DNA of 64,000 nucleotides, taken from Verrucomicrobiaceae bacterium (lineage in GTDB: Bacteria > Verrucomicrobiota > Verrucomicrobiia > Verrucomicrobiales > Verrucomicrobiaceae). Numbering within the stretch: position 1 is the stretch's first letter; each line of letters starts with the position of its first letter. The notes below the pieces were generated by a model. It was not told where the DNA came from and made no database searches. It saw only the letters and a program-made list of their open reading frames with translations. The position numbers and the translations under genes are program-made. Where the stretch lies: contig JAIBCL010000011.1 in NCBI GenBank assembly GCA_019694165.1, forward strand, positions 62,001-126,000, given 5' to 3'. Below, piece by piece: positions 3,617-59,507 of this stretch.

Positions 3617-3646
3617 CGGCTGTTTTCGACGGTTGATGCCGCACTC

Positions 3647-3691
3647 GGACTTGCGCGTTCCTCCTCACTCGCTGAGGTAGCGCGCAAGTCC
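3647..3691 (+). promoter_or_regulatory. Long hairpin immediately upstream of glpX start
   Basis: An 11-bp perfect inverted repeat (3647-3657 GGACTTGCGCG with 3681-3691 CGCGCAAGTCC) encloses a second 5-bp stem (3663-3667 CCTCA with 3673-3677 TGAGG, loop CTCGC). The right arm ends on the base before the glpX ATG (3692). No T-tract follows, so it is not a classical terminator for the upstream gene, although it lies only 30 nt beyond that gene's stop codon. It could be an RNA hairpin that controls translation of glpX, or a DNA operator for a dimeric regulator. The structure is seen directly; its function is inferred. Confidence 0.6.
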
Positions 3692-4765: not shown

Positions 4766-4840
4766 TGGCTCAAATTCCTGCCCGTTTTGCAATGCCGACG
4801 CCAATTGAGCACCTTGTGCGTCATACCAGGCTACGGGCAT

Positions 4841-4921
4841 TCAAGTGAAGAAGCAGTTCGCGAAACCCGCGACAAGTATCGAGGCTGACAGGAACACAAA
4901 CAGACGAGCGCGGTTAATCAT
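4841..4921 (-). CDS. Possible tiny hydrophobic peptide overlapping trmO stop
   Basis: This is a 26-codon ORF whose ATG (4921) overlaps the end of trmO by 8 nt, an arrangement typical of translational coupling. It encodes a basic start (MINRAR) followed by a strongly hydrophobic run (LFVFLSASILVAGFANCFF), so it would be a single-pass membrane peptide or a bare signal-like peptide. The Cys is not preceded by a proper lipobox. I know no family for it. At this length a chance ORF is a serious alternative, so only the overlap and the clean membrane-like composition support it. Confidence 0.22.
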   Translation of the reverse strand: MINRARLFVFLSASILVAGFANCFFT

Positions 4922-5654
4922 GGCTCACGTCTGGGATGCCTTGTCTCAGAAGCCTTGGTTCTGTTCCTGAATCTGCGCTGGAGGCTTGAATGACATCGAT
5001 GCCTGCGTCGGTGACGCGCCATTTCACGTTCCATCCCGCCACCGTCATGCCATACGTCCGCTCCGGATCATCGTGATACGCGGGCTGCGGTTCGAGTTGG
5101 AGGAGGCGGGTGATGAGCAGGGCGTCGGGGCCGAGGGTAATGGCGAGGTCCGGCGGGATGTGGACGTCTTCGGGCGCGCGGAGTGGTGGTGGCGCGGCGG
5201 CCCAGTCGGCACGGGCGTCGGTGCGGCTCTCGCACCACGGAAGATACGGTTTGATGTCGAGCACGGGCGTGCCATCGACGGCATCGACGCCGGCGACCTG
5301 CAGCACGAGTCGCGGCTCGGTCTCGATGCGGATGAGCTTCACGAGGCTGAGGCTGATGGGATTTGGCCGGTTCGGGCTGCGCGTGGCGAAGACGCCGCGT
5401 CGCTCGTTGCCGCCTAGTCGCGGCGGACGAACGGTGGCCTTGCCATCCCACGGCGGCGATCGATGGAAAATGGTGACCAGCCAGATGTGTGAGAACGCCT
5501 CCAGCCCTCGCACGAAGTCGGCGCGGTTGAACTCGTCGTGAAACTCAACTCGACCGACCGCATCTTCGACCAGCCCGCTTTGGCGCGGAATACCAAACTT
5601 CTCCGCGAACGGCGTGCGCAGCGTCGCGATGGGGCGCATGGTGAAGGGGTCCAT
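4914..5654 (-). CDS. trmO: tRNA (t6A37-N6)-methyltransferase TrmO (YaeB/TsaA family)
   Basis: TrmO transfers a methyl group from SAM to the N6 position of t6A37 in tRNA-Thr, giving m6t6A. The 246-residue product matches the family end to end. It starts with the RPIATLRTPFAEKFGIPRQSGLV strand, followed by GLEAFSHIWLVTIFH and the signature GVFATRSPNRPNPISLSLVKL. The C-terminal half has DGTPVLDIKPYLP, which also fits. The ATG at 5654 places the family N-terminus correctly; a second in-frame ATG is at 5639. The reading frame stays open to 6044, but that extension has no family resemblance. A small overlapping ORF follows the stop codon. Confidence 0.92.
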   Translation of the reverse strand: MDPFTMRPIATLRTPFAEKFGIPRQSGLVEDAVGRVEFHDEFNRADFVRGLEAFSHIWLVTIFHRSPPWDGKATVRPPRLGGNERRGVFATRSPNRPNPISLSLVKLIRIETEPRLVLQVAGVDAVDGTPVLDIKPYLPWCESRTDARADWAAAPPPLRAPEDVHIPPDLAITLGPDALLITRLLQLEPQPAYHDDPERTYGMTVAGWNVKWRVTDAGIDVIQASSADSGTEPRLLRQGIPDVSHD

Positions 5655-5976
5655 CCAGCGAGTGTGAGGAGAGAGGATGACGCGGTCAACCGGCAGCCTG
5701 AGCAAAGAACGAAGGACGATACGGGAGTGAATCTGCGGCCCGATGAACCTGCATGAAACATGTGACCATGTGTTGCCGAGAAAGGGATTGCCTGGCGACG
5801 GATTCCTGGAATCCAGAAGCCCAAGGGTTTCTCGCTGTTCAGCCCGGGGTTCGCGAAACCCTGGTGGAGACGGATCCGCAGCCACGCTGAAGACGAGCGC
5901 GACATCGGCGCGACGGAATCGAAGCATGTCTTCCGCTGCGATCATCCGGTGACAGTATTCTCCGCCGACCATTCGC
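5655..5976. other. Intergenic region without a convincing gene
   Basis: These 322 bp separate trmO from the upstream amidohydrolase gene, and both are read on the minus strand. Open frames cross it but show no recognisable protein. It contains two short inverted repeats: GGATTCC-T-GGAATCC around 5803-5817, and AGGGTTTC with GAAACCCT around 5823-5865. Either could be part of a terminator or of a small dispersed repeat, but neither has a T-tract. Confidence 0.4.
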
Positions 5977-39503: not shown

Positions 39504-42500
39504 ATGAACCGAACCCAACCTCAACACCGCCAACGTCGCTCGCCTTTGCTTGCCTGGATGCGTTGGCGATTGAAGACACCAGTCACCGCACTGCTCCTCG
39601 GCTGTTTTGTGCTGTGGACGACTCCGGCCCGGGCGCTCACGGGCTATTGGAACTTCGATGGCACGGGCAACTGGTCGAACTCGGGCAACTGGCTCGGCGG
39701 CACGATTCCGAACGGCGTTGGTGACATCGCAAACTTCAATTTCAACATCGGCAGCAATCGCACGGTCACACTCGATGCGCCTGTCACGCTCGGCGGCCTT
39801 GTGATCGGCGACACGCTGGGCGCGCAGGCTTACACGTTTGCGGGGCCTGGCGCGCTGACGCTGGATGCTCTCGGTGCGGCTCATGCGTCCATCAACAAAT
39901 ACAACTCCACCACCGATGTGTGGCAGGCACCGCTGAATTTGAATGACGCGCTGGATGCAAACATCTTCGCGGGCATCCTGGACATGACCGGAGCCGGCAG
40001 CACGCAGATCGCCATCAGCAGCAGCGCGTCGGACATCATCAAGAACAACGGCGGCAACCTGCGGCTCAATTTGGACGCCTCGGCGTTCAACGGGAACTGG
40101 ATCGTCAATCAAGGCACGCTGACCATCGGCGGCGCGAATGCCAACACGGCAGGAAACCTCGGCAATGGCACGGGTGGCATCATTCTGAATGGAACGGGTC
40201 TCGCCGCCGCATCGGTTCTGAGCTTGAACAACAACGGCACGGGCAGCAACGGCAACATCACCTACACCGGCAACAACGACGTGGTGCTGCAAGGCGCGGC
40301 GACGATCAACGCGGACCGCAACTACATCAGCGGAGCGAACACCGGCAACACCATCGTGCTCGACAACCTGACGATGAACGGCGGCATCCTCGGCGTGACG
40401 AGCGCGAACAGCTATGCGCTGCGCTTCAACGGCACGACGACGCTTGTGGGTGACACGAACGTCTTCTCAGTCGGCAACAACTCGACGGTGAACCTGCCGA
40501 ACCTGACTCTCGGCGGTGTGATCGACGACGGCGCAAAAAGCCGCGCGTTGATCAAAGAAGGCACAGGCCGCATGGTCATCGCCAACAGTGCGAACACCTA
40601 CGACGGCGCGACGGTCGTGAAGGATGGCTTCCTGCAAATCGCATCCGGCGCGAACCTCGGCACGGGCAAGGTTTTCGTGAGTGGCGGTGTGCTGAGCCTC
40701 GTGGCGGCGAATCAGACCGGCGTGGCAACGATGCCAGGCGGCTTGAATCTCGTCTCGCAGATTGGAACGACGCGCGCCGTGCTGCCAGTGATCGGGAACA
40801 CCGGCTTCACCATCGACAGCGCGAATCCGCTTAATGTCACCGTGCCGATCTACGGTATGGTGCTCGGTGTCGATGGCGACATCGCGAATAACATCGACCT
40901 CAGCCAGATCGGCGGCACGGGCAACACGCGCGTATCCGTGGCGAACGTCGGCGGCGTGAACCGCACTTACACCGGCACGATTTTGCCCGCGACCGACAAC
41001 ACGATCCGTCTCAACTCGGCCGCGAACATCTTCATCATCTCTGGCACCAACGCGCTCGGCGGCGCGACTTCGACGGCGAATGTCATCGCCGGTCTTGATT
41101 ACGCGACGCCGCTGAATTTGCCCGGCGTGAACATCACACAAGGCAACACAGGCACCATCTCGGTGCGTGGCAACAATTCAGCGACCCTCGGCAACGTGAC
41201 CGTCAATCGCGGCATCACCGCGAGCATTGAAGGCACGGGCCTGACCACACCGCTCGGCAACGGCGTCGTGACAGCGCTCGGTGGCACGGTCACAACGGAT
41301 GCGACGACGGACTCGAAGTTCGGCAACACGGATTTCCGGCTCTACGGCGGCAGCACACTTTTCATCGACAACGCCAGCGTCACGTCAGCGAACGCGGACC
41401 GTCGAATGCTGACCACGAGCAACATCGACCTAACAAGTTCCACCTTCCGCCTGCGCGGCGATGGCGGCGCGGCGACGGTTTCATCGCAGGCGGTGAATTC
41501 CATCGACTACTGGGGCGGCAGCACGCTCAGCATCGATACGGACGGCACCACGGCAGGCCGCCTCACCACGCTGACAACAGGCTCACTCAACCGCCAGGGC
41601 ACCGCCACGCTGAACATCCGCAATATCGGCGGCCAGGCGACGACCTTCGGCACGGCATCGGCAACGCAGAAGCTGCTCGTAACCTCTGCGCCAACGGTAA
41701 CCAATGGGATGATCGGCGCCAACGTCGCGCTATGGGCAGGCACCGCATCGAATGACGCGGGTGACACGCGTTTCGCCACTTACACGGCCAACGGCATCGA
41801 AGCCGCGACCTTCAATCTCACACCAACCACCGCCACGGCGCTGCAAGCTGCGACGGCGACGCAGATCGTCGATTTCAACGCCGTCACCGGCACGATCACG
41901 ATGACAGCCAGTGCCACGATGCAGGCGTTGCGACTGCGAACGACGACGAACACACAGATCCTCAGCAGCGGCGCGTTCACCCTCACGCTCGGCAGCGCTG
42001 CGGCGGTCGGGCAAGGCGCGGGCTTGCAACTCGAGCACACGGCGAACAACGAAGTCATTCATCCGCTCAACATCGCCTTCGGCACGCAAGAAGGCATGAT
42101 TTACACGGCGACAACCGGCGGCACATCGGGCATCGTGACGATGAGCGGCGTGTTGAGCGGCACCAATGGCATCACGCGCTTTGGCGACGGCATCCTGCGC
42201 CTCACGGGCACGAACACCTTCACCGGTCCGCTCACGATCAATGCCGGCGAGACGCGCTTGAATAACGTGCGCGCCGCCGGAGCCACGACCGGCACGCCGA
42301 ACGACATCAATCTCTGGGGCGGCTCGCTCTACTTCGAAGCCGCGACGCAGCGCTACAACAACAACGTCACCTTCTTCAACGACGCGCGACTCGGAAACGT
42401 CAATGTCGCCAACACAGGCTTCAACAACCTCGCCGTCGCCGCACGCACCGGCAGCACGGCTCCCGTGGTGCTCGACATCCGCGTGAACGGCGGCAGCAAT

Positions 42501-45500
42501 CAAACCACGGCCTACGGCGGACTGACGCTGAACGGCCCGGCGCAGTTCTACAACACCAACCTCCTTCAAATCAACGGCGGCATCAGCGGCTCGGGTCGCC
42601 TGGAGAAGTTTGGCAATGAGCGCCTCCTCATCGGCGGTGATTCGAGCGGCTATCTCCAGCCGATCACGGTGAATACCGGCGTGATCAGCAGCCTCAACGC
42701 CACCAGCACGGCGAAGCCTTTTGGCACGGGCACGATCACCCTGAATCCCGGCGGCAGCATTCGTCTCGCGGCTTCCAGCAACATCAACGCATCGCAGGTG
42801 ACGATGAATTCCGACCTCGGCGGCATCGGGGGCATCGGCATGAGCTACGTCGCAAATCCGACTTCACTGCCCGTGATGACGATCAACTCTTCTGCGCCAT
42901 GGAAAGGCACGCTCGGCATCGGCGCGGTCGGTTTCAGCCAGAACATCGACCAGGGCACGCTTTGGGGCGGCGGCGCGTATCTCGGAGCGTTGCTCGGCGA
43001 CACGGGCATCTACACCGGCACGCTGACGCCCGACGGCACAACCTTCCGCCTCGGCACCGGCCAGGGCACGATCCGCATCGACAGTCCGCTCACCGGAGCA
43101 TCGAATAGCGTGCAGGTCGGCCTCTCGATGACCGGCGATGTCGGCCGCGCCGATCAGGCCGTAAACAATGCGGGCGGCACGGTGCAGTTTGATGTGCCGA
43201 TGACCTACGGCGGCGCGACGGTGCTGCAAACCAACGGCGCACTGCGCATCAGCGCCACGACAGCGACCACCGGCATCGGCGCGATCACGCTCAACGGCGG
43301 CATTTTGCAAGGCGACTCGCTGGTGAGCAATTTCCGAGGCATCGCGCCGCTCTCCATTGCCAATACGATCGAACTCACCGCCGACAGCACGATCCAGATG
43401 CAGAACAACGCGGGCGATTTCCGGCTCGCTGGCCCGGTGAATCTCGCTTCGGGTTCCACTGGCGTCGTGCGCCAGCTCACAGTCGGCATTGATGGCACGA
43501 ACGCCGGTCAGCTCTATCTCGACGGCGGCATCAGCGACGGCACTGGCGGCTCTGGCAATCACTTGATCAAGGCCGGACAAGGCGCGGCCTTCATCACCAC
43601 GCCAGTGAGCTACACGGGCACGACGAACATCACCGGTGGATTCCTCGCGATCAATTCGCCCGCTGATCTCGCCAGCAGCTCGCAGATCGTGCTCTCCGGC
43701 GGCGGCCTCGCTGTGTGGGAGAATTCGATGACGCTCGACCGCAACGTGAGCATTCAGAGCACGGCGAACAACACGCCCGGCTGGTTCGACGTGCAGGCGG
43801 GACTCACGCTCACGCAGAGCGCGGCGAGCACCATCGAAGGTCCGCAAAACGCTGCTTTCACAAACTCCGGTATGCTCATGAAGCGCGGTCTCGGCACGCT
43901 GATCCTCAATGGCAGCAATGCGATGACCGGCGTGCTCGCGCTCGACGGTATCCTGCAAATCAACAACCAGGCCGCGCTCGGCGATCCGGCACGCGTTGGC
44001 GCTTCCGACATCCAGATCGGCGGTGACTTCGCCATTGGCGGCACGACAACGGTCACGCGCTTCACCGGCGGCACGCTGCGCATCAATGACAACGTGGTCA
44101 CGTCGCGCGGTATCCAGTTCAACAACAACAGCTCGTCCATTTACGGCGGCGGCATTGACGTCACGCCGGGCAACAACTTCGCGGTCACAGGAATCCTCTC
44201 GCAGGGCACCGACTTCGATTTCTGGTTTAAGACCGGCGCTGGATCGCTCGTGACGACGGGCGCGAATACGTTCAGGCAATTCGCCATGGTCGGCGGCACT
44301 TATCAATTTGGCACGAGCACACCGTGGGCGAACAGCACAGCCACGAGCACGGATACGACGACCATCGAGATGATCGGTGGCACGATGCGCGCCGTGAACG
44401 CGGCCGCGAGCATCGCGCTGGCCAACAACGTCAGCACGACGAACTACAACTACAGTGGCGGCATGATTCTCCAGATGGAAAGCGGCGTGCTCCAGAGCAT
44501 CGAGTTCCAGGCCGATGCGCTCACGCGGCAGAATCAAGGCACGCTCGTGCTGCAAACGATGAACGGCACCACGCTCGGCGCGGCGGGCAGCACGAATGCA
44601 GCGCGTGTGATTCCGACGAATGCCGTGAACAGCGGCCTCGCGCGAGCCTCGGCGCTGAGCAGCAGCGGAATCTTCGCTCCGCATCTCGTCGCTGCCGACA
44701 GCACGGGCATCGCGAGTTTTGTCACCGACGATGCGACCAACGGCATCAAGCCCTACTCTGGCGCGACGTTGTCTTCGCTCGTTGGCAGCAATCCGACGAG
44801 CATCGCCGACATCGGCGGCACGCAGACGCTCAGCGGCAGCAACAGCATTTTTGCCCTGCGCACGACCGCCGACATCAACGGCGGCACGCTGAGCATTCGA
44901 GCCGTCGACAACGTGAACATGGGCGGCATCCTCATCAACGGCAGCAACACGATCAGCAGCAATGTTGTCTTTGATCCGACTTCCGCCACAGCTCCAGGCA
45001 CCGGCACACCGGCTGAGGGCCTCGTCTATGTGAAGGAAGGCGAGAACGCGGCTCTCAGTGGCAAGCTGCTCGCGAATGCATTCACGAAGTTCGGTCGCGG
45101 CACGCTCACGCTCAGCGGCGGCGGTGCGGTTCTGGGCGACGTCAGCATTCAAGACGGCACGGTGAAAGTCGGCGCGACGAATCCGCTGAGCCGCATGGAC
45201 AGCGAGTTGAACATCAACTCGGGCGCGACGCTCGACTTGAACGGCAACAGCATCGCGGTCGAGACGCTCGGCAGCAACAACCGGCAGGTCACCGGCACCG
45301 GCGGCGGTGTGAATTTCGGCGGTAGCGTCACGAACGCGGCTGGCGGCAGCGCGGCGACGCTCAGCATGGCCGGGCCGCAGAGTTCGACCTTCACCGGCAC
45401 CATCAATGGCAACTTGAAGCTCATGAAGGCAGGCAGCGGCGTGCTCACCATCGACGGCTATCGCGCCAGCACGCCGGACTCGGGCAGCAACACCTTTACT

Positions 45501-48500
45501 GGTGGCACGAACGTCTATGGCGTTGGCACCACGGGCGGATTGCTCATCGACAACGCGCCATTCGCATTCGGCGGCGCGAATGGCTCGACGCCTGGCGATG
45601 TGAATCTTTACAGCGGCACGCTCGACTTCCGCTACAGCGGCAATGCCACCACCTTCAGCATCGCTGGCGGCACGAACGGCCAGCAATACAACAACCTCGT
45701 CGTGCGCATCGGTGCGGACGGCACAAACGGCGTCACGCTCAATGTGAAGGGCCCCGGCTTGATCAATGTGAATCAAAGCACCGGCGCGATCGGTCAGGGC
45801 AACATCATCCAGGTCGGCACGCTAAACATGACCGACACCTCGCTCAGCAGCAGCGGGGCGAATCTGTATCGCTTCCGCGCCGCCGGGCCGGTGAACATTC
45901 AAGGTGCGCAGGCCAGCTTCAACACCACGAGCACCGGCCCAGCCGGCATGATCGAACTCGCGGGCGTCATCGGCGGCAGCGGCTCGCTCAACAAGCTCGG
46001 CGACACCGTGCTCGGCGCGGTCGTCATTTCGGGCAATGCGAACACTTACAGCGGCGGCACAAACATCATCGCGGGCGAGGTGCAGGTCACGGCCACGAGT
46101 GGCACGCCGCTCGGCTCGGGCGCGGTGCGCGTCTTCCCCACCGGCACGCTGCGTCTCGCGGGCAATGGCAGCGTGAATGGCGCAAAGCTCGAAGTGATGA
46201 GCAGCGCCACGGCGCTCGGCGCGATCTCGCTCGATCAGAATTTCAATCCGACGGTGCTCACGAGCGCGAACTTCGGCAGCGTCTATAACAACACGTTGCA
46301 GCTCTCGCAGCCCTATTGGACGCAACCGCTCGACCTCGCCGCCATCGGCGATGGTCGCAGCTTCCTTGGCACCGGATTGGGCCAGGAAGTGAAATACATG
46401 GCCGCCACGCTCGGCGCGGGCGTGGCCGATCCGGCGATCACGGCGACGGGCGTTTATCGTCTTGTCGGTGGATCGAGCAATCTCGCGTTCGATGGCGTGA
46501 ACAACGTGCTCACGGGCAACAACTACCTCCAGCTTGGACCGCAGCGCGGCAATGTGCTGGCCGCACCGACCAATGGCGGCAACGCGGTGGTGATTCGCAA
46601 TTCGAACAACTTCACCGCCGGCACGCAGATCACCGAGGGCACCACGCTCGCGATTGAAACCGGCGGCTCGCCCATCGGCGAGACGCCGCTCGGCTCCGGC
46701 GCGGTGGAGGTGTATGGCACGCTGCAAATCTCCGGCAATCTCGGCTCCGCCTTCAATGCAAGCACTGGAAGCAATGCGAACACGATCACGCTGCGGCCCG
46801 GCGGTCAGGTGCGCATCATCGACTCCTTCAACACACTCGTCGCCGGTGATCAAGGCCGCTGGGGCGACACCGTAGCCGTCGATTTAAACGGCGGCATCTT
46901 CCGCCTCGACGGCGCGGCGAACTGGCAGACGACCGAAACCATCGGCGACGTCACTGCGCGCAAGGGCGGCACGCTGACCGTGGTCAAAAACAGCGCGGCC
47001 TCCAGCGCGCAGTTGAACGTTGCCTCGCTCGCCCGAGCGGATCGCGGCTCGGTCTCGATCAACTACACCGCCGGCTTCCTCGGCCAGAACACGAACACGC
47101 CGCTGAGCTACGAACGTCTGCTGGTAAACGGTGGCGTCGCTGTCGGCGGCACCACGACGAATGGCAGCGGCTTCACGAACACCGGCATGGCTGCTCCATG
47201 GATCATCGACCGCGTGGCGAACACCTTCGTCGGCTACAACACGACCACCGGCTTCCAGCCTTTGATCAGCGCGGCTCCGGGCGTGGGTGAAGTGGCCTAC
47301 AACAAGATTGTGTCCGGCGCGCTTTCCGCAGGCGGACTCGTCGCGGGCGACATCGCGGACCTCACCACGGCTGCGAAGACGCTGGCGGACAATCCGACGC
47401 TCTACGCACTGCGCACAAATCAAAACATCAGCCCGACTGCGGGCAACAACACGATGACGCTCACCAGCGGCGGCCTCATCATGACGGCGGGCACGATCAA
47501 TCCTACGAGCGCGATCACCAGCGGCTACGTCTCGCCGATGACGCTGAACTTTGGCGCTGGCGGTGGCGGCGAGGCGCTGATCTTCGTCGGCGCGGCGACT
47601 TCCACGATCCAAGCGCAGATCGTTGCGGCGCAAGGCCTCACGAAGATGGGTCCGAACCAACTCACGCTCACGTCGATCAATCCCGGCATCGGCGCACCGG
47701 TCGTGATCAATGAAGGCACCTTGCTCGCGCGCGTTCCTGTGGCAGGTGGTGGTAGCGGCGCGGCGGTCGGCACGGTTTTCAATGGCCAGGACGTGATCTT
47801 GAACGGTGGCGCGTTGCAACTTGCCTCGCAGCTCGCGAATGCCACGGGCACTGCTTCTGAGATCGCCAGCAATGCGACTGTCACCGGAAGCTTCGGTAGC
47901 AATGTCCTCGTTCGCGCTGACTCGACGCTCGGCAACAATGGCGTGGCGCAATACGTGCGGATCAACAACCTCACCATCGCGAACGCGGCGGGCGCTGCGG
48001 CGATGAACAACAACGGCGTCATCGCGCTCGCGCTGCAAAGCGGCATCTGGGTCGGCGGCACGACGACGCTAAGCACGCAGGCACGGCTCAACAGCACCTT
48101 CAATGGCATGTCGCAGACAACGCTCGCAGGAATCGTTACGGGAGCTGTGATCGAGAAATTCGGCAACGGCGCGATCACGCTGCTCAACGGCGCAAACAAC
48201 TACTCCGGCGGCACCATCATTCACGGCGCGGCTGCGGCCACTGCGACGAGCGCCGTCGCATCCGGCTTCCGCGGCACTGGCACGCCATTTGGCACCGGCG
48301 ACATCACCATCAATCCCGGCGGCGTGCTGCGCCTCGCGGACAATGCAAACATCGCCAGCAACGCCGTGACGATGAAGTCGGATGACATCGGCCTGGCCGG
48401 CATCGGCATCGCGCACAATGCAGCCTTGCCCACGATCATCACCAGCGGCTCTCCGAGTGCGGGACAGATCAAACTCGAAACCACCGGAGCTTACGGCGGC

Positions 48501-51500: not shown

Positions 51501-54500
51501 GTGTTCGACACGAACGGCCTCGCGCTGTCCATCGCTGGCATCACGGGCAATGGCACGATCCTCGGCGGCGGTGCGCTGACCAGCCGCAATGGCTTTGGTG
51601 TCGATCTCACCTTCGGCGGCGGCATCACCGGCACGTCGAGCTTCACAAAGTCCGGCGATGGCATCCTCACGATGACGGGGTTCAGCACCTACAGCGGCGG
51701 CACGAGCGTCGAGGCCGGTCGCATCGTCTCCGCCATTCCGCTGCCAAACACGAACACCGCGCCCGGCTTGTCGCTCGCATCGCTCGGCACGCTGGATGCG
51801 CGCGGCGCGCAGGCGCTGGGCACTGGACCGATCACGCTCAAAGGTGGCATTCTCGCCATTAACAACAACATCGCGCACGCCGAGGTCGAGGACGGCATCG
51901 ACTTCAACACGTTCGGCCCCGGCAACGGCTACGACATCACCGTGGCAAATGTCGGCGCGACGAACGGCATTGCGCTGCCCGGAAACATGACGAGCACCAT
52001 TTATCTGAACTCCAGCAACACCGCGACGCTCACCGGCAATAGCGCGATCAACTCGCTGACCATCGACGCGCCGCAGCTCAACATCGCCGGCCTGGCGAAC
52101 AACAGCGGCAACCTGAGCCTTCTCTTCGTCAAGGGCGCGACGAACTTCTCGCAGCCAAACACGGTGCTCGACACAAACGGCGGCCGCCTTTTCCTCGGCG
52201 GTCAGATCAATGCGAACGGCAAGACGATCACGAAGATCGGCTTGCAGGACGTGGTGCTCTCCAATACCGAGCTTGATGCCGGGCAGAACCAAGTCGGGCT
52301 TTGGAAGGTGTATGGCGGCGTTTTGAACCCGCGCGTGGCCGACGGCGCGTCGAATCCCCTCGGCAGCGGTGTCACCGTCGAACTCAACGGCGGCACGACG
52401 GGCGTGATTCATTTGAACCTCAGCACCGACGGCAACGGCACGACCCTGTCCGAGCGCATCTCGACCTATCAGGACACCAACCTGCGCTTTGGCTCGATGC
52501 TGCCGGTGACGAGCAGCGAGTTCGTCATGACCGGCGCGAGCCGCGTAAACACGGACCGCATCGTCGGCAACAACTCCAACAAGACGACGGTCATCAACAA
52601 TCTCGAAGCCGGCGGCGTGCTTGGCTCACCGTATGTTTATTTCACCGGCGCGGCGACTGCCACCGGCGACAACTTCTGGGTGAACGGCACCACCAAATTC
52701 GTCCGCGACCTGTATTTGCAGAACGACGTGGCGCTCACGCTCAATGGGGTGATCAGCGGCCAGGGCACTTTTGTGAAGCGTTTCGGAACCACGATTTATG
52801 TGAACGCCGACAACACGACCGGCTACAACGGCGGCACCATCCTCACGGGAACCGCGTTGCTCTTCGGCAGTCTGGAGGGGAATCAAATCACGCTGAACGA
52901 CACCGCGAAGCTCGGCAAAGGCCACGTCGTCGTGAACGCGAACGGCCAGCTTCAATTCAACAGCGCCTCCAACCTGCAGGCGGGCCAGAACGTCTATGTG
53001 AGCAGCAACCTCGACAACTTCGGCGTGCTACGCCTCGCGGCAAACCTCACGCTTGATCAGGTGAACTTCCGCGCGGCCGGAGTCGGCGGCGCGCAGGCCA
53101 CCGCGAGCAATTACTACCTCACCAGCACGAATCCCGGCGGCGGCGTGCTGGCGCTGAACACCGTTTACAGCAACGCGCTGAACATGCGCTCGCTTGGCGA
53201 CGGCACCTGGTTCCTCGGCAGCACGACCAATGGTGTCGGCGCAAACGGCTCGTATGACGCCGCGACGCTCGCGCCCGGCTTCAACAACACCTACCGACTC
53301 GGTGCTGGCGGCTCGACGCTGTTCTTCGGCTCGAACGGCGCAAGCAACGTGATCACGAACACCGATGCGAGCTGCATCAGCAATCTCGTCGTCGGCGCGC
53401 CGATGTCCGTGCAGAACAACGCGGTGATCGGCAATGGCGCCGGCAACGTGGTCTTCCTCACGTCGCAGAACTACGGCGGCACCACGGTGATCAACCGCAG
53501 CAGCACGCTCGACTTCCGCGGCACGCTGAACACAAGCGGCATCGAGACCTACGGCGGCCTGAACGTCGCCGGCGAGACCGGCACCTTCTTGAAGGGCGGC
53601 ACGGGCGCGAACATTCCCGTCACTCTGCGTCCGGGTTCCACGCTGCGCTTTGACAACACCTCAGCCGGTGTGCTGCCGGTGGCGTCCACACAAGGACGCT
53701 GGGCGGATGGCACGGGCATCGATCTAGACAACGCGACGCTGCGTCTGCAAGGCAATGCGGCAGTGGAAGTGAGCGAAACCGTCGGCGCGATCGCAGCGAA
53801 AGGCGGCTCGTTCATCGAAGTCGTGCGCGGCGTGGCCGGTCGGGGCACCGAGCTGCGCACACCGGGCATCACGCGCGTCGGCGCGGGCACGATCACGTTT
53901 AATACCAACAGCGAGACGCTAGGCAGCGACGAGCGCGTCATCATCACTGGCACCGCACCAGTGGTGACGAACGGCATGGTCTCCCCGTGGATGATCAGCA
54001 ACACGAACACGGAATTCATCACCTACAATGCCGACACTGGCTTCTCGAAGGCGGGCTTCACCAATGTGCAGGTTGGTGGCACGACAGCGGCGACGCTGAG
54101 TCTTACGAATGATCGCGTGCTCTTCGGCACGGCGACGACGGCGATCGGCAACGGCTTTGACATCAACGCATGGGCCGCGCGGCTCGATGTCGATCTCACG
54201 CTCGCCACCGCTTCCAACGCCACCAGTGCGGCCAACCGGCTCGTTCTCGGTAGCGGTGGTCTCATCACCACCGGCACGCGGCAGATCAATGCAGGCCTCG
54301 TCGCCGGTGCGGGCGCAAGCGAGCTGCTCATCTTCAACACGGGCACCACGACCATCGGCGACAGCGCCAACATCACCACGAGCGGCCAGATTGCCGCGTC
54401 GAGCATCACGAAGTCAGGTGCTGGCACGCTGGCGCTGCAAGCCGTGCAGGGAATTTTCAGCGGCAACATTAACGTGAATCAAGGAGCGCTCACGTTGGGC

Positions 54501-57500
54501 TACAATCCAACCGGAGCGACGGGATCGGTGACGGTGACGCCCATTGTGAACGTCGGCGGCGCGGGCGGCACGATCTTCCTCAACGGACCGAACGTCTCAC
54601 TCAACCTCAACGGCGGCAACGATGCCTATGCGGCCGGGGTGAACACGATCTTCAACAACAGCGTCACCATCGGCGACTACAACCCGATCGTGCAGCTTGT
54701 GGCGAACCGATTCGGCGGCGCGATCACCGGCCGCCGCGTGGTCATCGGCGGCAATTTCACCTTTGGGGCAAACACGGCCGAGACGGGCCAGATCGCGCGG
54801 TTCACCTCTGGCAATGCGTTTGACTGGCAGCTTGGCGACTCGGCGAGCGACACCGTCACGCTCGTCGGCAAATCGGTGTTCGATGTCGATAACGGCGGCA
54901 CGGCTGGCCAGCCAGATTTGACCATCACGGCGAAAGTGACCGGCACCGGCACGCTGGTGAAGAGCCGCATCGACACCAGCTCGGATTTGATGCTGATGGA
55001 GAACGTCACGAACCTCAATGACTTCAGCGGCGGCACCATCGTCACCGGCGGCACGCTTCGCGTGTATGCGAAGGCGAACAACGTCGCGGCGGCAGCCTCG
55101 ACGAACATCACGGCGGGCGGTCTTGGCACCGGGGCCATAACGCTGATGGGCGGCACGCTCGATCTGCGCGTGGACAACGATGTCGGCGGCGCCGCGGACA
55201 CGAACGCGGAGCGCACGTTCTTCAGCGCGGCTGGCAATGGACTCGATCTCATCGTGAACGGCTCCGCCACGCTCAACGTGGACCGCACCGGCCTCGTGGC
55301 GGCGGGAACGACGAAGCAAATCGCCTTCAACTCGCTCACCATCGGCTCGCAGATCCTCACGGTGAGCGGCGGCAACACCTACTCAGCCGAGATCGCCGGA
55401 ACGACGACGCTGAAGGGCAATCTGTTCCTCAACAACAGCGTTGACGTGATCCTCGGCGGCGACATCAACGACGGCGGCGCAGGCCTGTTCATCAACAAGA
55501 TCAACACCGGCGTGCTCTGGGTGAACTCGGCCACGAACACGCTCGGCGGCGGTGCATTCATCAATGCCGGCATGCTGCGCTTCGGCACGCCACGCGCCGA
55601 CAGCACGACGGCGCAGCTCGGCAGCGGCCTGATCACGATCAATCCCGACGCCGAAATCCGTGTGAACGCGCTGACCAACATCAACACAACGGCGAATCAG
55701 AAAATCGATCTCATCAGCACCGCCTACGCGCCCGCCGTGCTGCGCACCGCCGCTCTTACGCAGGCGCAGTATCAGTCGATCCTGACCACGACTTCGAGCG
55801 GCCAGCTCGCGCTCCTCGGCACAGAGAGCAACGCGCTCGACATGAGCACGCTCGGCGATGGCCGCATGTATCTCGGCAGCGTCGAAGCGGACCGAACCTA
55901 CAATGCCGCCACGCTCGCGCCCGGCCTTGCTGATCTTGGCGGAACAAACCGCGTCTATCGACTCGGCACGCGCAACTCGGGCAATTTGATCGTGAACCTC
56001 TCCGGCACAGGCAATCTCACTGATGTGGGCGGCGTTACGGATGTGAGGATTGGCTCGCTGGCCAATCTCGGACCGCAAGGAAGCTGGGGCATCGGCAATG
56101 TGCTGCTGCAGGATCAGAACACCTACACCGGCAGCACGACGATCGTGCGCGGCAGCTCGCTGCGTTTCGATCAAGCCAACACGCTTACCGCGGGCAGCCT
56201 CGGTGCGTTGACGGGTGCCACGGGCACCAGTGCGGCTGCGATTCATACTTATGGCATTCTGCGCGTCGAAGGCACCAACGGCTCTTTCGTTGACTCGACC
56301 AACTCGGCGAACGCCTACACTAACATCACGCTGCATCCCGGCAGTGAGCTTCGTCTTCAGGACGTCAACACGACGGGAGCGGCTGCCAATCGCTGGCACG
56401 ACTCCGCCGCCATCGGCTTGAACGGATCGTTGCTCACTTTGCAAACCGCGAACGCAGTCGTCACGGGGGCGGAGACAGTGGGTGCGATCAGCTTTGATCG
56501 CGGTTCGCGCATCCAGCCCCTTACGCAAAGCACCGCGCAGCTCACGCTGAACACGCCTAGCCTCACGCGCGTCGGCAGCGGGACCATGGTCTTTTTGCCG
56601 TCGGCGGCTGGTCGTCTCGGGCTTGCGCCGGGGGCCAACAGCGAACGAGTCATTGTGACCGGAACGGCTCCGACCGCCACTAACAGCATGTTGCCGGGCT
56701 ATTTCATCTCGGCGGGAGCGGATCAGCGGTTTGTGAGCTACGACAACACCAACGGCGTGACGCTCGTGGCCGATGCCGCCATGACCGCCTTCGCCGGAGG
56801 GATGACAGCGGGGACTGCCATCGTGAACGTCACCGCCGCGACAAACCTGCCGGACATGAATCCGACGATTTACGCCCTGCGAACAGCGGCCAACATCAGC
56901 AGCCCGACAGGCTCCAACAACGACGCCACCATCACCTTCGGCGGAAGCGGAGCGAATGTGGGCGGGCTGCTTTTGATCAATGGCGGCGCGGATAACACGA
57001 CCACGCTCGTCAGCCCGAATCTCAAGTTCGGCACGACGGGGGCTAACGAGGCGCTGATCTACTTCCAGAATCCCGGCGGCACGAACCGCACGGCAACCCT
57101 CGCCGGCAACATCACCGCCACAGGAGTCACCAAGTTCGGAACCGGCTTGCTGATCGTCGCGAACGACCAGAGCGATGCCGCGCGTGGCGTGGGCAATGGC
57201 TACAGCAACGGATGGGTGGTGAACGAAGGCACCCTGCAACTCGGCACCTTTGGTTCCGCAGGCAATGCGGTGGTCGGCAACACCATCACGCTCAACGGCA
57301 GCCAGGTCGGCGCGGCGCAGCTCAATCTGCGCGCGCAGCCTCAGAACACGCTGCTCAATTACAGCTACACCAGCGGCAAGATCATCGCCGTGGACAACGC
57401 GATCATTGATTGGGATCCCGGTGCGAACGACCGCGTCCACACCATCGCTGACATCGAGGTGCAGCAGGCGGGCGGCAATGGCCCAGTCGATGCGCAGCTT

Positions 57501-59507
57501 CGTTTCGCCAACAACCGTGCGCGTTCCATCCTCGCCACAGGCCAGCTCACGCTGACGAACAACGCGATCATCAACGTGGACACCACCGCCGACCAGAGCG
57601 TCTTCTACGCCTACACCACGACGAACACCAACCTCACCACCGGCACCAGCTCCGGGATCTCGGTCGCGAATTTGAACGGCAGCGGCAACTTCACCAAGTG
57701 GGGCGACGGCTACCTGTATGTGCGCGGTGCCAGCCCGACCTTCACCGGCAACGTCGTGATCGACCAGGGCGCGGTGCAGGTGAACGATAACAACGCGCTC
57801 GGCTCCGGCTCGATCACGGTGAACCGCTACGGCATTCTCGACATCGCAGTCGCGAACTACACGCCGACGGCCACCTACAACGACGCATCCGTGGAGCGCT
57901 GGAGCATCGACGGAGCCCGCACCGGCACGGTGAACCTCGGACTCGGCACGCTTCAAGTGGCGGCGAATCAAAGCGGCACGGCGACGGTCGTGCTGAACGG
58001 CGGCTCCATCGAAGGCTGGCTGCGCAGCGATGACGTGACGGAAAACAATCGCAACTCCGGCGTCTTCCGCAATCTCGGACCGAACATCAGCATCACGCTC
58101 GCCGGCAATTCGCTCGTCGGCACGCAGTTCTACGAAGGCGCGAACGGCCTCGACATGGGCAAGCAGACGAATGACTCGCGTCCGCTTGAGGAATACTTCG
58201 GCTCCGGCGTCATCCTCGACATCCAGGGCGTCATCAGCGGCGCGGGCAAGTCCTTGACCAAGGTCGGCTACGACACCGTCATCCTCTCCGGCGCGAACAC
58301 TTACACCGGCGGAACGAACGTGAACGGCGGCAAGCTCCTCCTCGGCCGCAACGACGCGCTGGCCATCACCGGCGATGTCGCCACGAACGCCAGCGGCGTC
58401 CTCGACCTCAACGGCTCCAACCAGACCGTCGCGAGATTGTCGAACGCCGTGAATCCCGCCGCGCCCTCGACCAACAGCGGCTACATCACCAACTCGGCCG
58501 CCAGCGTGAACACGCTCACCGTCGGCAACGGCGTCGCCACCAACTTCACCTACAGCGGCGTCATTCAGAACAACGTCGCGCTCACGAAGACCGGCGGCGG
58601 CGCGTTGCAGCTCGACAACGCAAACACCTATCTCGGCAAGACCACCGTCTCCGCGGGTGCGATCAAGCTCGGCGTGAGCGGCAGCATCGACGACTCGCCG
58701 TGGATCGAGATCAGCCCGGCCGCGATGCTCGATGTCACCGCAAAGACCGGCGGCTACGCGTTCGACGGCACCATCACCGGCGGCGGTGCCGATGCCGCTG
58801 GGACGACCTTTGCCACCGTGACGACTGCCGCGCGCATCGCGGGGAACATCACCGTTGGCGATCACATCGGCGAAGTCTGCCTCATCGGCAACCTCTCTCC
58901 TGGCGGCAGCAGCAGCGCGGCTGACATCATCACCGCCGGCAATCAGATCGGCCACATCTACACGAGCGGCAATGTCACGCTCAGCGGCGGCTTGGTCGGC
59001 AGCTCGCCCATCGTGCCCGAGACGCGGCTCGCGATGCAGCTCGCAGGCTCCACCACCACGCTGGCCGCGCTGGGCTACACCGGCGGCAATGTTGAGACCT
59101 TCATCGACGGTCTCACCGGCACCGAGGCTTCGCTGAACGGCGGCGCAGGCAATCTGGCCGGCCACGACTACGTCAACGTCGGCGGCACGCTCACGCTGAA
59201 TGCGAATGGCCGCATCGTCGTGACGAACTTCGGCAGCTACACGCCGTCGTTCGGCGACGTGTTCAATTTGCTCGACTGGGGCGCACTCACGAACAACGGC
59301 TTCGTCACCGGTGCTCGCTACCAATCCGGCAACGAAACCAACGTCGATCTCGATCTGCCTGTGCTAGCCAACGCATCTTTGAGCTGGGACACGAGCAGGT
59401 TCGCCGGCCTCGGGGTGGTGGTCGTGGTGCCGGAGCCCGGACGTTGCCTGCTGCTCCTGTTCGGCCTCGCATCACTGCTGCTCCGCCGCCGTCGTGCAGC
59501 CACATGA
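39504..59507 (+). CDS. 6667-residue autotransporter-associated beta-strand repeat protein with PEP-CTERM tag
   Basis: The ATG at 39504 gives an arginine-rich leader and signal core (VTALLLGCFVLWTTPARA). An open frame reaching back to 38949 only shadows the previous gene. The N-terminus has the usual W-x-NW block (TGNWSNSGNWLGG). About twenty PATR units follow, with cores such as ANTYSGGTNIIAGEVQV and ANTYTGGTNVNGGKLLL, predicted to stack as a beta-helix. Between them lie longer recurring modules, described separately as super-repeats. The C-terminus has no autotransporter barrel; it ends in VPEP (from residue 6642), a hydrophobic helix and RRRR, a PEP-CTERM sorting signal processed by exosortase. 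The expected product is a huge cell-surface or matrix fibre. Its size is extreme for a bacterial protein. Nothing interrupts the frame over 20 kb, so it is probably expressed. Confidence 0.93.
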   Translation: MNRTQPQHRQRRSPLLAWMRWRLKTPVTALLLGCFVLWTTPARALTGYWNFDGTGNWSNSGNWLGGTIPNGVGDIANFNFNIGSNRTVTLDAPVTLGGLVIGDTLGAQAYTFAGPGALTLDALGAAHASINKYNSTTDVWQAPLNLNDALDANIFAGILDMTGAGSTQIAISSSASDIIKNNGGNLRLNLDASAFNGNWIVNQGTLTIGGANANTAGNLGNGTGGIILNGTGLAAASVLSLNNNGTGSNGNITYTGNNDVVLQGAATINADRNYISGANTGNTIVLDNLTMNGGILGVTSANSYALRFNGTTTLVGDTNVFSVGNNSTVNLPNLTLGGVIDDGAKSRALIKEGTGRMVIANSANTYDGATVVKDGFLQIASGANLGTGKVFVSGGVLSLVAANQTGVATMPGGLNLVSQIGTTRAVLPVIGNTGFTIDSANPLNVTVPIYGMVLGVDGDIANNIDLSQIGGTGNTRVSVANVGGVNRTYTGTILPATDNTIRLNSAANIFIISGTNALGGATSTANVIAGLDYATPLNLPGVNITQGNTGTISVRGNNSATLGNVTVNRGITASIEGTGLTTPLGNGVVTALGGTVTTDATTDSKFGNTDFRLYGGSTLFIDNASVTSANADRRMLTTSNIDLTSSTFRLRGDGGAATVSSQAVNSIDYWGGSTLSIDTDGTTAGRLTTLTTGSLNRQGTATLNIRNIGGQATTFGTASATQKLLVTSAPTVTNGMIGANVALWAGTASNDAGDTRFATYTANGIEAATFNLTPTTATALQAATATQIVDFNAVTGTITMTASATMQALRLRTTTNTQILSSGAFTLTLGSAAAVGQGAGLQLEHTANNEVIHPLNIAFGTQEGMIYTATTGGTSGIVTMSGVLSGTNGITRFGDGILRLTGTNTFTGPLTINAGETRLNNVRAAGATTGTPNDINLWGGSLYFEAATQRYNNNVTFFNDARLGNVNVANTGFNNLAVAARTGSTAPVVLDIRVNGGSNQTTAYGGLTLNGPAQFYNTNLLQINGGISGSGRLEKFGNERLLIGGDSSGYLQPITVNTGVISSLNATSTAKPFGTGTITLNPGGSIRLAASSNINASQVTMNSDLGGIGGIGMSYVANPTSLPVMTINSSAPWKGTLGIGAVGFSQNIDQGTLWGGGAYLGALLGDTGIYTGTLTPDGTTFRLGTGQGTIRIDSPLTGASNSVQVGLSMTGDVGRADQAVNNAGGTVQFDVPMTYGGATVLQTNGALRISATTATTGIGAITLNGGILQGDSLVSNFRGIAPLSIANTIELTADSTIQMQNNAGDFRLAGPVNLASGSTGVVRQLTVGIDGTNAGQLYLDGGISDGTGGSGNHLIKAGQGAAFITTPVSYTGTTNITGGFLAINSPADLASSSQIVLSGGGLAVWENSMTLDRNVSIQSTANNTPGWFDVQAGLTLTQSAASTIEGPQNAAFTNSGMLMKRGLGTLILNGSNAMTGVLALDGILQINNQAALGDPARVGASDIQIGGDFAIGGTTTVTRFTGGTLRINDNVVTSRGIQFNNNSSSIYGGGIDVTPGNNFAVTGILSQGTDFDFWFKTGAGSLVTTGANTFRQFAMVGGTYQFGTSTPWANSTATSTDTTTIEMIGGTMRAVNAAASIALANNVSTTNYNYSGGMILQMESGVLQSIEFQADALTRQNQGTLVLQTMNGTTLGAAGSTNAARVIPTNAVNSGLARASALSSSGIFAPHLVAADSTGIASFVTDDATNGIKPYSGATLSSLVGSNPTSIADIGGTQTLSGSNSIFALRTTADINGGTLSIRAVDNVNMGGILINGSNTISSNVVFDPTSATAPGTGTPAEGLVYVKEGENAALSGKLLANAFTKFGRGTLTLSGGGAVLGDVSIQDGTVKVGATNPLSRMDSELNINSGATLDLNGNSIAVETLGSNNRQVTGTGGGVNFGGSVTNAAGGSAATLSMAGPQSSTFTGTINGNLKLMKAGSGVLTIDGYRASTPDSGSNTFTGGTNVYGVGTTGGLLIDNAPFAFGGANGSTPGDVNLYSGTLDFRYSGNATTFSIAGGTNGQQYNNLVVRIGADGTNGVTLNVKGPGLINVNQSTGAIGQGNIIQVGTLNMTDTSLSSSGANLYRFRAAGPVNIQGAQASFNTTSTGPAGMIELAGVIGGSGSLNKLGDTVLGAVVISGNANTYSGGTNIIAGEVQVTATSGTPLGSGAVRVFPTGTLRLAGNGSVNGAKLEVMSSATALGAISLDQNFNPTVLTSANFGSVYNNTLQLSQPYWTQPLDLAAIGDGRSFLGTGLGQEVKYMAATLGAGVADPAITATGVYRLVGGSSNLAFDGVNNVLTGNNYLQLGPQRGNVLAAPTNGGNAVVIRNSNNFTAGTQITEGTTLAIETGGSPIGETPLGSGAVEVYGTLQISGNLGSAFNASTGSNANTITLRPGGQVRIIDSFNTLVAGDQGRWGDTVAVDLNGGIFRLDGAANWQTTETIGDVTARKGGTLTVVKNSAASSAQLNVASLARADRGSVSINYTAGFLGQNTNTPLSYERLLVNGGVAVGGTTTNGSGFTNTGMAAPWIIDRVANTFVGYNTTTGFQPLISAAPGVGEVAYNKIVSGALSAGGLVAGDIADLTTAAKTLADNPTLYALRTNQNISPTAGNNTMTLTSGGLIMTAGTINPTSAITSGYVSPMTLNFGAGGGGEALIFVGAATSTIQAQIVAAQGLTKMGPNQLTLTSINPGIGAPVVINEGTLLARVPVAGGGSGAAVGTVFNGQDVILNGGALQLASQLANATGTASEIASNATVTGSFGSNVLVRADSTLGNNGVAQYVRINNLTIANAAGAAAMNNNGVIALALQSGIWVGGTTTLSTQARLNSTFNGMSQTTLAGIVTGAVIEKFGNGAITLLNGANNYSGGTIIHGAAAATATSAVASGFRGTGTPFGTGDITINPGGVLRLADNANIASNAVTMKSDDIGLAGIGIAHNAALPTIITSGSPSAGQIKLETTGAYGGAITLDYGYYSQPLNMSSVGNGTLWLGNSQQADAYYFNPSLGANANGEYQLGAGGNQAHLYLGGLLVSAGRQSLFENVFSGGTANSTRIEVGALTGNLAAEGPSFVNGNTGGIGLLTRNMNLTGDVRVNTNSTLNIGNNFALGSGRLVLNGGNIRVDAVQNTTIDNNVLLTGDFNTSNGNDFVINGNVAMHDAAYSAGATRLWNLAGTGTMGVYGVISGADGSNFIKSGVQFLLLGGANTYQGYTQINNGEIIAQGNVLPGVAGPLGISDSPIVFGSGTGNTGGTANVGGWLGIGGKFTIGRDIILGQTTGTGSSALDARTNERVTISGGISLIASSALTVGSMAANVSNFQGGTIDLAGPISGAGSLIIGTTTTTNNATTVANGGTVILSASTNGYGTNTFSGGVTLNSARLQIASDTYFTNAATNPTILSGPLGTGTFTFGAGESNRGGTIEAVGGARTIVNALGNLATASNTTLGFSGVNALTFTRDLNINSDATMRTRTFNVPNAWAPITFSGNLTNSGAGGATLIKNGVGTLVLTGTNTQADLLTTDANYGAGVVVNAGILRVNADAALGSTTSIAAGGTHLVGPADIKLAGGTLSASAGFTTARQLILTANSGVDVASGQSLTLSTATAGAFTITKTGPGTLALNNAANAQTGLTLGGQAQQNPAYGRFSNTGGTVSTTATSGTPFVAGAAGTVTINSGTLSLVGGASAQSLSIPRLIYGAAGHLAINQGTTTSTLTASEAAATAFQRAGTLNSVSFGTLALNTSVAGALGGNEKVLISNAAAQPANTAGTGGSILSVPSIVTAVSGSGQDADFVRYDATNGFMAHNVTTVTALGATAPTNVGDISAAGSTAGAGIIDVLALRTAGNITPTDGTSLVRILGGGLILNGSTAPNISANVSFNSGSAAIEALTYVRDGQSGASILSGSIAARDFTKFGPGTLELSGTANVLTAGTARLPVLSVQEGTLRFANAGALFQNGSRGNETGLFTLNVNESGVFDTNGLALSIAGITGNGTILGGGALTSRNGFGVDLTFGGGITGTSSFTKSGDGILTMTGFSTYSGGTSVEAGRIVSAIPLPNTNTAPGLSLASLGTLDARGAQALGTGPITLKGGILAINNNIAHAEVEDGIDFNTFGPGNGYDITVANVGATNGIALPGNMTSTIYLNSSNTATLTGNSAINSLTIDAPQLNIAGLANNSGNLSLLFVKGATNFSQPNTVLDTNGGRLFLGGQINANGKTITKIGLQDVVLSNTELDAGQNQVGLWKVYGGVLNPRVADGASNPLGSGVTVELNGGTTGVIHLNLSTDGNGTTLSERISTYQDTNLRFGSMLPVTSSEFVMTGASRVNTDRIVGNNSNKTTVINNLEAGGVLGSPYVYFTGAATATGDNFWVNGTTKFVRDLYLQNDVALTLNGVISGQGTFVKRFGTTIYVNADNTTGYNGGTILTGTALLFGSLEGNQITLNDTAKLGKGHVVVNANGQLQFNSASNLQAGQNVYVSSNLDNFGVLRLAANLTLDQVNFRAAGVGGAQATASNYYLTSTNPGGGVLALNTVYSNALNMRSLGDGTWFLGSTTNGVGANGSYDAATLAPGFNNTYRLGAGGSTLFFGSNGASNVITNTDASCISNLVVGAPMSVQNNAVIGNGAGNVVFLTSQNYGGTTVINRSSTLDFRGTLNTSGIETYGGLNVAGETGTFLKGGTGANIPVTLRPGSTLRFDNTSAGVLPVASTQGRWADGTGIDLDNATLRLQGNAAVEVSETVGAIAAKGGSFIEVVRGVAGRGTELRTPGITRVGAGTITFNTNSETLGSDERVIITGTAPVVTNGMVSPWMISNTNTEFITYNADTGFSKAGFTNVQVGGTTAATLSLTNDRVLFGTATTAIGNGFDINAWAARLDVDLTLATASNATSAANRLVLGSGGLITTGTRQINAGLVAGAGASELLIFNTGTTTIGDSANITTSGQIAASSITKSGAGTLALQAVQGIFSGNINVNQGALTLGYNPTGATGSVTVTPIVNVGGAGGTIFLNGPNVSLNLNGGNDAYAAGVNTIFNNSVTIGDYNPIVQLVANRFGGAITGRRVVIGGNFTFGANTAETGQIARFTSGNAFDWQLGDSASDTVTLVGKSVFDVDNGGTAGQPDLTITAKVTGTGTLVKSRIDTSSDLMLMENVTNLNDFSGGTIVTGGTLRVYAKANNVAAAASTNITAGGLGTGAITLMGGTLDLRVDNDVGGAADTNAERTFFSAAGNGLDLIVNGSATLNVDRTGLVAAGTTKQIAFNSLTIGSQILTVSGGNTYSAEIAGTTTLKGNLFLNNSVDVILGGDINDGGAGLFINKINTGVLWVNSATNTLGGGAFINAGMLRFGTPRADSTTAQLGSGLITINPDAEIRVNALTNINTTANQKIDLISTAYAPAVLRTAALTQAQYQSILTTTSSGQLALLGTESNALDMSTLGDGRMYLGSVEADRTYNAATLAPGLADLGGTNRVYRLGTRNSGNLIVNLSGTGNLTDVGGVTDVRIGSLANLGPQGSWGIGNVLLQDQNTYTGSTTIVRGSSLRFDQANTLTAGSLGALTGATGTSAAAIHTYGILRVEGTNGSFVDSTNSANAYTNITLHPGSELRLQDVNTTGAAANRWHDSAAIGLNGSLLTLQTANAVVTGAETVGAISFDRGSRIQPLTQSTAQLTLNTPSLTRVGSGTMVFLPSAAGRLGLAPGANSERVIVTGTAPTATNSMLPGYFISAGADQRFVSYDNTNGVTLVADAAMTAFAGGMTAGTAIVNVTAATNLPDMNPTIYALRTAANISSPTGSNNDATITFGGSGANVGGLLLINGGADNTTTLVSPNLKFGTTGANEALIYFQNPGGTNRTATLAGNITATGVTKFGTGLLIVANDQSDAARGVGNGYSNGWVVNEGTLQLGTFGSAGNAVVGNTITLNGSQVGAAQLNLRAQPQNTLLNYSYTSGKIIAVDNAIIDWDPGANDRVHTIADIEVQQAGGNGPVDAQLRFANNRARSILATGQLTLTNNAIINVDTTADQSVFYAYTTTNTNLTTGTSSGISVANLNGSGNFTKWGDGYLYVRGASPTFTGNVVIDQGAVQVNDNNALGSGSITVNRYGILDIAVANYTPTATYNDASVERWSIDGARTGTVNLGLGTLQVAANQSGTATVVLNGGSIEGWLRSDDVTENNRNSGVFRNLGPNISITLAGNSLVGTQFYEGANGLDMGKQTNDSRPLEEYFGSGVILDIQGVISGAGKSLTKVGYDTVILSGANTYTGGTNVNGGKLLLGRNDALAITGDVATNASGVLDLNGSNQTVARLSNAVNPAAPSTNSGYITNSAASVNTLTVGNGVATNFTYSGVIQNNVALTKTGGGALQLDNANTYLGKTTVSAGAIKLGVSGSIDDSPWIEISPAAMLDVTAKTGGYAFDGTITGGGADAAGTTFATVTTAARIAGNITVGDHIGEVCLIGNLSPGGSSSAADIITAGNQIGHIYTSGNVTLSGGLVGSSPIVPETRLAMQLAGSTTTLAALGYTGGNVETFIDGLTGTEASLNGGAGNLAGHDYVNVGGTLTLNANGRIVVTNFGSYTPSFGDVFNLLDWGALTNNGFVTGARYQSGNETNVDLDLPVLANASLSWDTSRFAGLGVVVVVPEPGRCLLLLFGLASLLLRRRRAAT
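46105..47670 (+). repeat. Super-repeat copy 1 (modules B-C-A) in the giant protein
   Basis: Module B (46105-46495) has GTPLGSGAVRVFPTGTLRL and LDLAAIGDGRSFLG...VYRLVGG. Module C (46782-47085) has LRPGGQVRI, QGRWGDTVAVDL and TIGDVTARKGG. Module A (47105-47670) runs from SYERLLVNG through TLYALRTNQNIS, GGLIM and EALIFVGA to LTKMGPNQLTL. The same order and spacing recur twice further on. Confidence 0.75.
52905..54440 (+). repeat. Super-repeat copy 2 (modules B-C-A) in the giant protein
   Basis: Module B (52905-53335) has LNMRSLGDGTWFLG and TLAPGFNNTYRLGAGG. Module C (53617-53930) has LRPGSTLRF, QGRWADGTGIDL and TVGAIAAKGGS. Module A (53925-54440) runs from DERVIITGTAPVVTNGM through GGLITTG and ELLIFNTG to ITKSGAGTLAL. 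It is clearly homologous to copies 1 and 3 at protein level. Confidence 0.78.
55610..57170 (+). repeat. Super-repeat copy 3 (modules B-C-A) in the giant protein
   Basis: Module B (55610-55995) has LDMSTLGDGRMYLG and TLAPGLADL...YRLGTR. Module C (56324-56630) has LHPGSELRL, NRWHDSAAIGL and TVGAISFDRGS. Module A (56640-57170) runs from SERVIVTGTAPTATNSM through TIYALRTAANIS, GGLLLI and EALIYFQ to VTKFGTGLLIV. Isolated A modules occur at about 41685-42240, 44595-45115 and 50825-51345, and isolated B modules at about 42712-43085 and 48285-48690. Confidence 0.78.

Follow-up and report, generated by a model that had tools for sequence, protein, structure and literature searches.

A giant PATR/PEP-CTERM protein of Verrucomicrobiaceae is built as an ordered series of units conserved across relatives

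Proteins that combine PATR repeats with a PEP-CTERM sorting signal are already known. Verrucomicrobium spinosum, with 65 instances, is the species in which the PEP-CTERM domain was originally encountered, and PEP-CTERM systems accompany exopolysaccharide loci (PMC1569441). Of 23 PEP-CTERM proteins predicted in Akkermansia, mass spectrometry picked up 9 (PMC4960237), and the PVC superphylum, more generally, is rich in huge proteins (PMC11573180). Giants of the PATR/PEP-CTERM kind are easily dismissed as uninformative repeat strings. What is new in the protein described here is its body, an ordered and conserved series of units, for which no published description was found in a search of mainly openly accessible literature.

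The window, the whole stretch of DNA analysed, is 64,000 nucleotides long (G000:C47:62001-126000) and comes from a 7.8-Mb Verrucomicrobiaceae genome in 66 contigs that is 96% complete. A first-pass annotation had reported in it a 6,667-residue PATR reading frame ending in VPEP, a transmembrane (TM) helix and RRRR, with no barrel. The frame is indeed intact, with zero internal stops, and its C-terminal signal lies above the TIGR02595 cut-off (Table 1). PF12951 was the sole Pfam domain found over the whole length, at 58.7 and 48 bits (curated cut-off 27), and TIGR02601 scored 49.9 and 49.5 bits (curated cut-off 19.85) in the NCBIfam scan of residues 1–3333 and 5001–6667. The repeats were thus correctly recognised; their number, originally given as about 20, was looser, and nine reach E ≤ 0.001 with PF12951. 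No enzyme domain was found by Pfam over the whole length or by NCBIfam in the same two stretches. The Pfam scan reported no TPS domain and showed no C-terminal β-barrel of the type Va kind in the ORF, and PF03797 had 0 matches genome-wide at 96% completeness, so that the description as barrel-free holds for the ORF and, as far as PF03797 detects such barrels, for the entire genome.

Windowed self-BLAST of the giant gave 50 off-diagonal matches, with E values down to 2.6e-17, and none in three block-shuffled versions. Module HMMs recovered six copies of module A and five of module B, as first described, and four of module C: the three copies reported earlier stood, and a refined HMM added a fourth (unit 1 in Table 1). 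The resulting layout is C-A, B-D-A, B-C-A, B-D-A, B-C-A, B-C-A, where D is a middle segment in place of C. The three B-C-A runs noted in the first pass were found again by the HMMs at 46095-47669, 52911-54437 and 55602-57158. As the first module HMMs were built from, and hence contain, the copies that they recover, the independent support for the modules comes from a sibling protein and from orthologs in other genomes.

The repeat continues on the N-terminal side of B, where residues 2031–2716 align with 5210–5879 (E 3e-38) and 4339–4976 with 5248–5883 (E 1e-45). The unit, in units 3, 5 and 6, is therefore about 640–690 residues long, and the ≈515 residues initially taken as the super-repeat are only its core. 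Units 2 and 4 belong to a second type, B-D-A, in which residues 1383–1870 match 3461–3946 (E 9e-23). The original proposal of an ordered repeat that is a distinct structural unit is supported in its essence, and has to be amended to allow for a greater length than first given, for a second unit type and, as described below, for units that cannot stand in for one another.

In the 16 other PATR-region ORFs of the genome, module A gave one weak match (24 bits), module B nothing over 15 bits and module C seven weak matches (18–39 bits), and shuffled versions gave none. That the modules are generic motifs of PATR proteins was rejected, since these ORFs are essentially devoid of A and B; the seven weak matches of C indicate that this module is partly common to other PATR proteins. 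Neither of the two findings that would have refuted the first-pass proposal was made: the modules align far above both the shuffled and the other-PATR controls, and exosortase genes are present in the genome, as described below.

Table 1. Features of the giant ORF and its upstream neighbour, in window coordinates.
Feature	Coordinates	Strand	Basis or remark
Upstream 1,540-aa secreted-type protein (fn3, CBM96/DNRLRE, Calx-beta)	34807..39429	+	Domain scans
Giant PATR/PEP-CTERM ORF	39504..59507	+	6,667 aa; start ATG 39504 fits ortholog leaders
Leader/putative signal peptide, leader type a (SPLLAWMRWRLKTPVTALLLGCFVLWTTPARA)	39504..39638	+	Common to C25 sibling and C12 ORF
Module C, unit 1 (fourth C copy)	41262..41609 (aa 587-702)	+	Refined HMM, 57 bits
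Module A, unit 1	41667..42203	+	Module HMM
Module B, unit 2	42702..43070	+	Module HMM
Middle segment D, unit 2 (in place of C)	43650..44249	+	Matches 49884-50441
Module A, unit 2	44655..45113	+	Module HMM
Module B, unit 3	46095..46478	+	Module HMM
Module C, unit 3	46704..47048	+	Module HMM
Module A, unit 3	47112..47669	+	Module HMM
Module B, unit 4	48276..48668	+	Module HMM
Middle segment D, unit 4	49884..50441	+	Matches 43650-44249
Module A, unit 4	50835..51341	+	Module HMM
Module B, unit 5	52899..53318	+	Module HMM; unit 5 modelled with AlphaFold
Module C, unit 5	53541..53891	+	Module HMM
Module A, unit 5	53931..54437	+	Module HMM
Module B, unit 6	55602..55979	+	Module HMM
Module C, unit 6	56241..56585	+	Module HMM
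Module A, unit 6	56643..57155	+	Module HMM
C-terminal PATR region	57156..59426	+	Among parts best conserved vs sibling
PEP-CTERM sorting signal (VPEP, TM helix, RRRR)	59427..59495	+	TIGR02595, 23.7 bits, cut-off 16

The sibling is encoded in the same genome. An open frame of 13,713 residues runs off the end of contig C25 (G000:C25:1-41139), and the end of contig C26 (C26:104314-105852) shares a stretch of ≈40 residues with it and continues to a PEP-CTERM end. From these contig ends, we infer a single protein of 14,158 residues, joined over the overlap. Its C-terminal part carries the same module series as the giant, and the two are colinear, with gaps, from about residue 966 to residue 6664 of the giant, as seen in two long HSPs (41% and 38% identity) and in windowed best hits; identity is 50–53% in windows of giant residues 6376–6664. 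The N-terminal half of the sibling contains a different super-repeat, with a spacing of about 1,150–1,290 residues. Two more giant PEP-CTERM/PATR ORFs stand in tandem at G000:C51:562-37618, with open frames of 5,976 and 6,359 residues, and neither contains module A or B.

A six-unit profile matched 25 of 57 genomes, a count that includes the genome of the window. All 25 are of the same family, and none of the 21 from other families of the order matched. Among 388 genomes of the phylum, near-full-length matches occurred only in Verrucomicrobiaceae and those elsewhere were partial, in a scan that scored few candidates per genome and therefore tests absence outside the family weakly. With a profile built from an alignment of unit-3 orthologs, 33 of 68 family genomes matched, about ten of them at scores marking the proteins of the giant's own kind, type I. 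The relatives matched by name are Verrucomicrobiaceae MAGs, one of them labelled Prosthecobacter sp. The unit profile partially matched an open frame of 17,232 residues (G151:C2:41170-41961) from a different family of the class.

The complete PEP-CTERM-bearing type I proteins, measured from the leader's first Met to the stop, are 6,667 (window), 6,796 (G010), 6,642 (G034), 6,689 (G437) and 6,732 (G439) residues long. G010, G034, G028, G437 and G439 all keep the giant's unit order in their type I proteins, as does G017, where the protein is split over contigs; the partial sequences from G463 and G450 agree with this order. The giant is 55–58% identical to the proteins of G010, G034 and G028 end to end, over 6,468–6,505 residues; identity between species is only slightly higher in the modules than in the rest (0.58 vs 0.54). 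This retention of order and of a nearly constant length points to a defined layout and not to a loose repeat string. Type II proteins, which include the orthologs of the sibling in Verrucomicrobiaceae, have the same series in the C-terminal part of longer and variable open frames (11,546–14,657 residues) with long N-terminal expansions. One extra B-C-A/B-D-A pair of units is present in G003 and G032, and a compact family of 4,241–4,889 residues, which is doubled in G026 and G027, has two B-C-A units.

It is the conservation of the module series as a whole across these relatives that is the new point here, and it extends to the individual positions. A tree built from 103 A modules groups them by ordinal position, with types I and II as subgroups. 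Support was 85 for unit 3 and 97 for unit 5; the other ordinals are not single clades, because copies from G003/G032 or weakly placed copies fall among them. With each unit's ordinal taken from its place along the chain, the best A matches of units 2–6 in 12 proteins fell on the same ordinal in 640 of 660 cases, and in 300 of 300 within a type. From species to species, every position thus retains a sequence of its own, and units from different positions are not interchangeable. Recent tandem duplication or homogenisation within a genome was rejected on the basis of this tree and this count.

The leader of the giant is conserved, with a hydrophobic core and an ARA/RGA-like site, the cleavage site being placed by eye. 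Leader type a is found on the giant, on the C25 sibling and on an ORF on C12; type b occurs in other genomes, on proteins of types I and II and on compact and eight-unit ones. For most of the pairs compared, similarity in the DNA of leader b is confined to a stretch from about the ATG to about nucleotide 76; in G027, G035 and G032 the similarity extends into the upstream DNA. Weaker versions of leader b head other ORFs of 6,283–12,750 residues, and both leader types sit on giants with different bodies (a in the window, G000:C25 and C12; b in G437, G439, G035, G027 and G032). Judged from these sequences, the ends look exchangeable, with leaders as if swapped as cassettes. At the other end, the type I ortholog in G028 (G028:C137:10548-37214) carries the same unit series in an open frame of 8,889 residues, a length due to its differing end. 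Its long tail has cadherin-, Ig- and kelch-like stretches, recognised by eye, and no PEP-CTERM, which suggests that exosortase sorting is not essential to the role of the body.

Exosortase sorting had been part of the first-pass proposal, and the genome was found to have two exosortase genes (PF09721), with the cysteine motifs PCSGLRSL and PCSGVRSL, along with 30 PEP-CTERM matches. The gene on C6 is over the TIGR02602 cut-off, and that on C57 is just under it (100.5 vs 105.55) but over that of TIGR04178. One of the two has a separate EpsI-like gene adjoining, and the other is fused to an EpsI-like domain.

AlphaFold models were calculated for one unit of each type. The B-C-A unit (unit 5; 509 residues, 19 sequences) reached a pLDDT of 81.2 and a pTM of 0.84, and the B-D-A unit (804 residues, 16 sequences) a pLDDT of 83.3 and a pTM of 0.81; both models, which represent single units and not the junctions between them, are nearly all β. 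The unit profile had only a chance-level match among PDB sequences. Foldseek with the B-C-A model gave nothing at E ≤ 0.001, so that the fold assignment is based on a second-look aligner and on secondary structure. With this aligner, the top matches of the B-C-A model were β-helices, the IcsA passenger (Z 13.0 over 234 residues, rmsd 4.7) and pertactin (Z 11.6), and those of the B-D-A model were RbmB (Z 13.7), PfbA (Z 13.2) and Ag43 (Z 11.3); the matches hardly reached into the later half of A. Repeat folds quite often give Z values of this size, and the matches therefore support a fold class and not a function. As modelled, both unit types resemble β-helices such as autotransporter passengers. 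With the textbook rise of about 4.8 Å per rung, and assuming some 22 residues in each rung, 6,600 residues folded in this way would span more than 100 nm.

We consider it probable that the giant is an ordered β-helical rod that is exported by Sec and sorted by an exosortase, with export, surface location and function inferred. The Sec-type leader would carry the protein over the inner membrane. The body would consist of six homologous units of two types in fixed order, followed by the conserved C-terminal PATR region, and the units may form a single continuous rod across their junctions. The PEP-CTERM tail would keep the end of the protein in the membrane until an exosortase processes it and passes it on to the cell surface or matrix, where its role may be structural or adhesive. 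Internal duplication presumably gave rise to the units at a time when neither the present species nor types I and II had yet diverged; that each position has kept its own sequence since then suggests constraint on the layout in its entirety. A bolder version of this reading, which we put forward only tentatively, is that the protein is a surface rod of set length specific to Verrucomicrobiaceae, in which the six non-interchangeable β-helical units are positions on a ruler-like filament of more than 100 nm, the ends are exchangeable cassettes and the sister proteins lengthen the N-terminal side only.

The likeness of the unit models to type V passengers raises the question of a different exit. 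In that scheme, two-partner or other, an unrecognised outer-membrane barrel encoded elsewhere would secrete the rod, and the PEP-CTERM signal would be a temporary anchor. PATR is classically an autotransporter repeat, and the fact that two leader types are common to several giants could also be accommodated. We regard this route as unlikely, given an ORF in which Pfam shows no barrel and a genome with no PF03797 match.

A direct role in carbohydrate binding or cleavage was also weighed. The upstream gene, which includes a carbohydrate-binding module, ends about 75 nt before the giant, and a homologue adjoins the giant in G010 (70% identity) and G017 (67%), making its product a possible partner; it was not found in the giant flanks examined in G034, G028, G437 and G439. 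Together with this protein, the β-helix might serve as a carbohydrate-active or matrix-binding scaffold that binds or cleaves polysaccharide, as the structures that the unit models resemble include several polysaccharide lyases or tailspikes, and the association of PEP-CTERM systems with exopolysaccharide loci noted above would be in keeping with it. Many non-enzymes are β-helical as well, however, and as neither Pfam nor NCBIfam showed an enzyme domain in the scanned stretches and the neighbour was not found in four of the flanks examined, such a scaffold appears quite improbable.

Least credible, and very improbable in our judgement, is a loosely constrained, fast-evolving PATR array in which every genome gains, loses and homogenises repeats for itself and recent tandem duplication has left the B-C-A order behind: the detectable similarity of units within one protein, the extra pair in G003 and G032, the long type II expansions and the separate repeat in the sibling's expansion would suit it, but the A modules group by position across genomes and not by genome, nearly all best matches fall on the same ordinal, and the five complete PEP-CTERM-bearing type I proteins all lie within 6,642–6,796 residues.

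The giant can be regarded as an orthologous protein with defined parts, whose order and, nearly, length are kept across species. These parts make its function testable, since a unit could be removed or exchanged according to its position, and a well-defined giant cargo becomes available for exosortase sorting.

Compared with the known PATR/TIGR02601 autotransporter-associated proteins, the giant has PATR cores above the cut-offs and a β-helix-like prediction; unlike them, it has no C-terminal barrel, and its PATR cores are embedded in six far longer, ordered units. It shares with PEP-CTERM cargo of the exosortases (EpsH, Xrt) a leader resembling a signal peptide, the VPEP-TM-RRRR tail and exosortases in the genome. 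Typical cargo of this kind is far shorter, and the giant differs further in its conserved multi-unit body and in having one ortholog without the tail. The type Va passengers IcsA, pertactin and Ag43 are fold neighbours of the predicted unit models, whereas the aligned parts are only about 10–15% identical and neither the ORF nor, by PF03797, the genome has the barrel of such proteins. With the huge proteins of the PVC superphylum, the giant has in common a length of more than 5,000 residues; it differs from them in that its orthology, unit order and positional conservation have been resolved across genomes.
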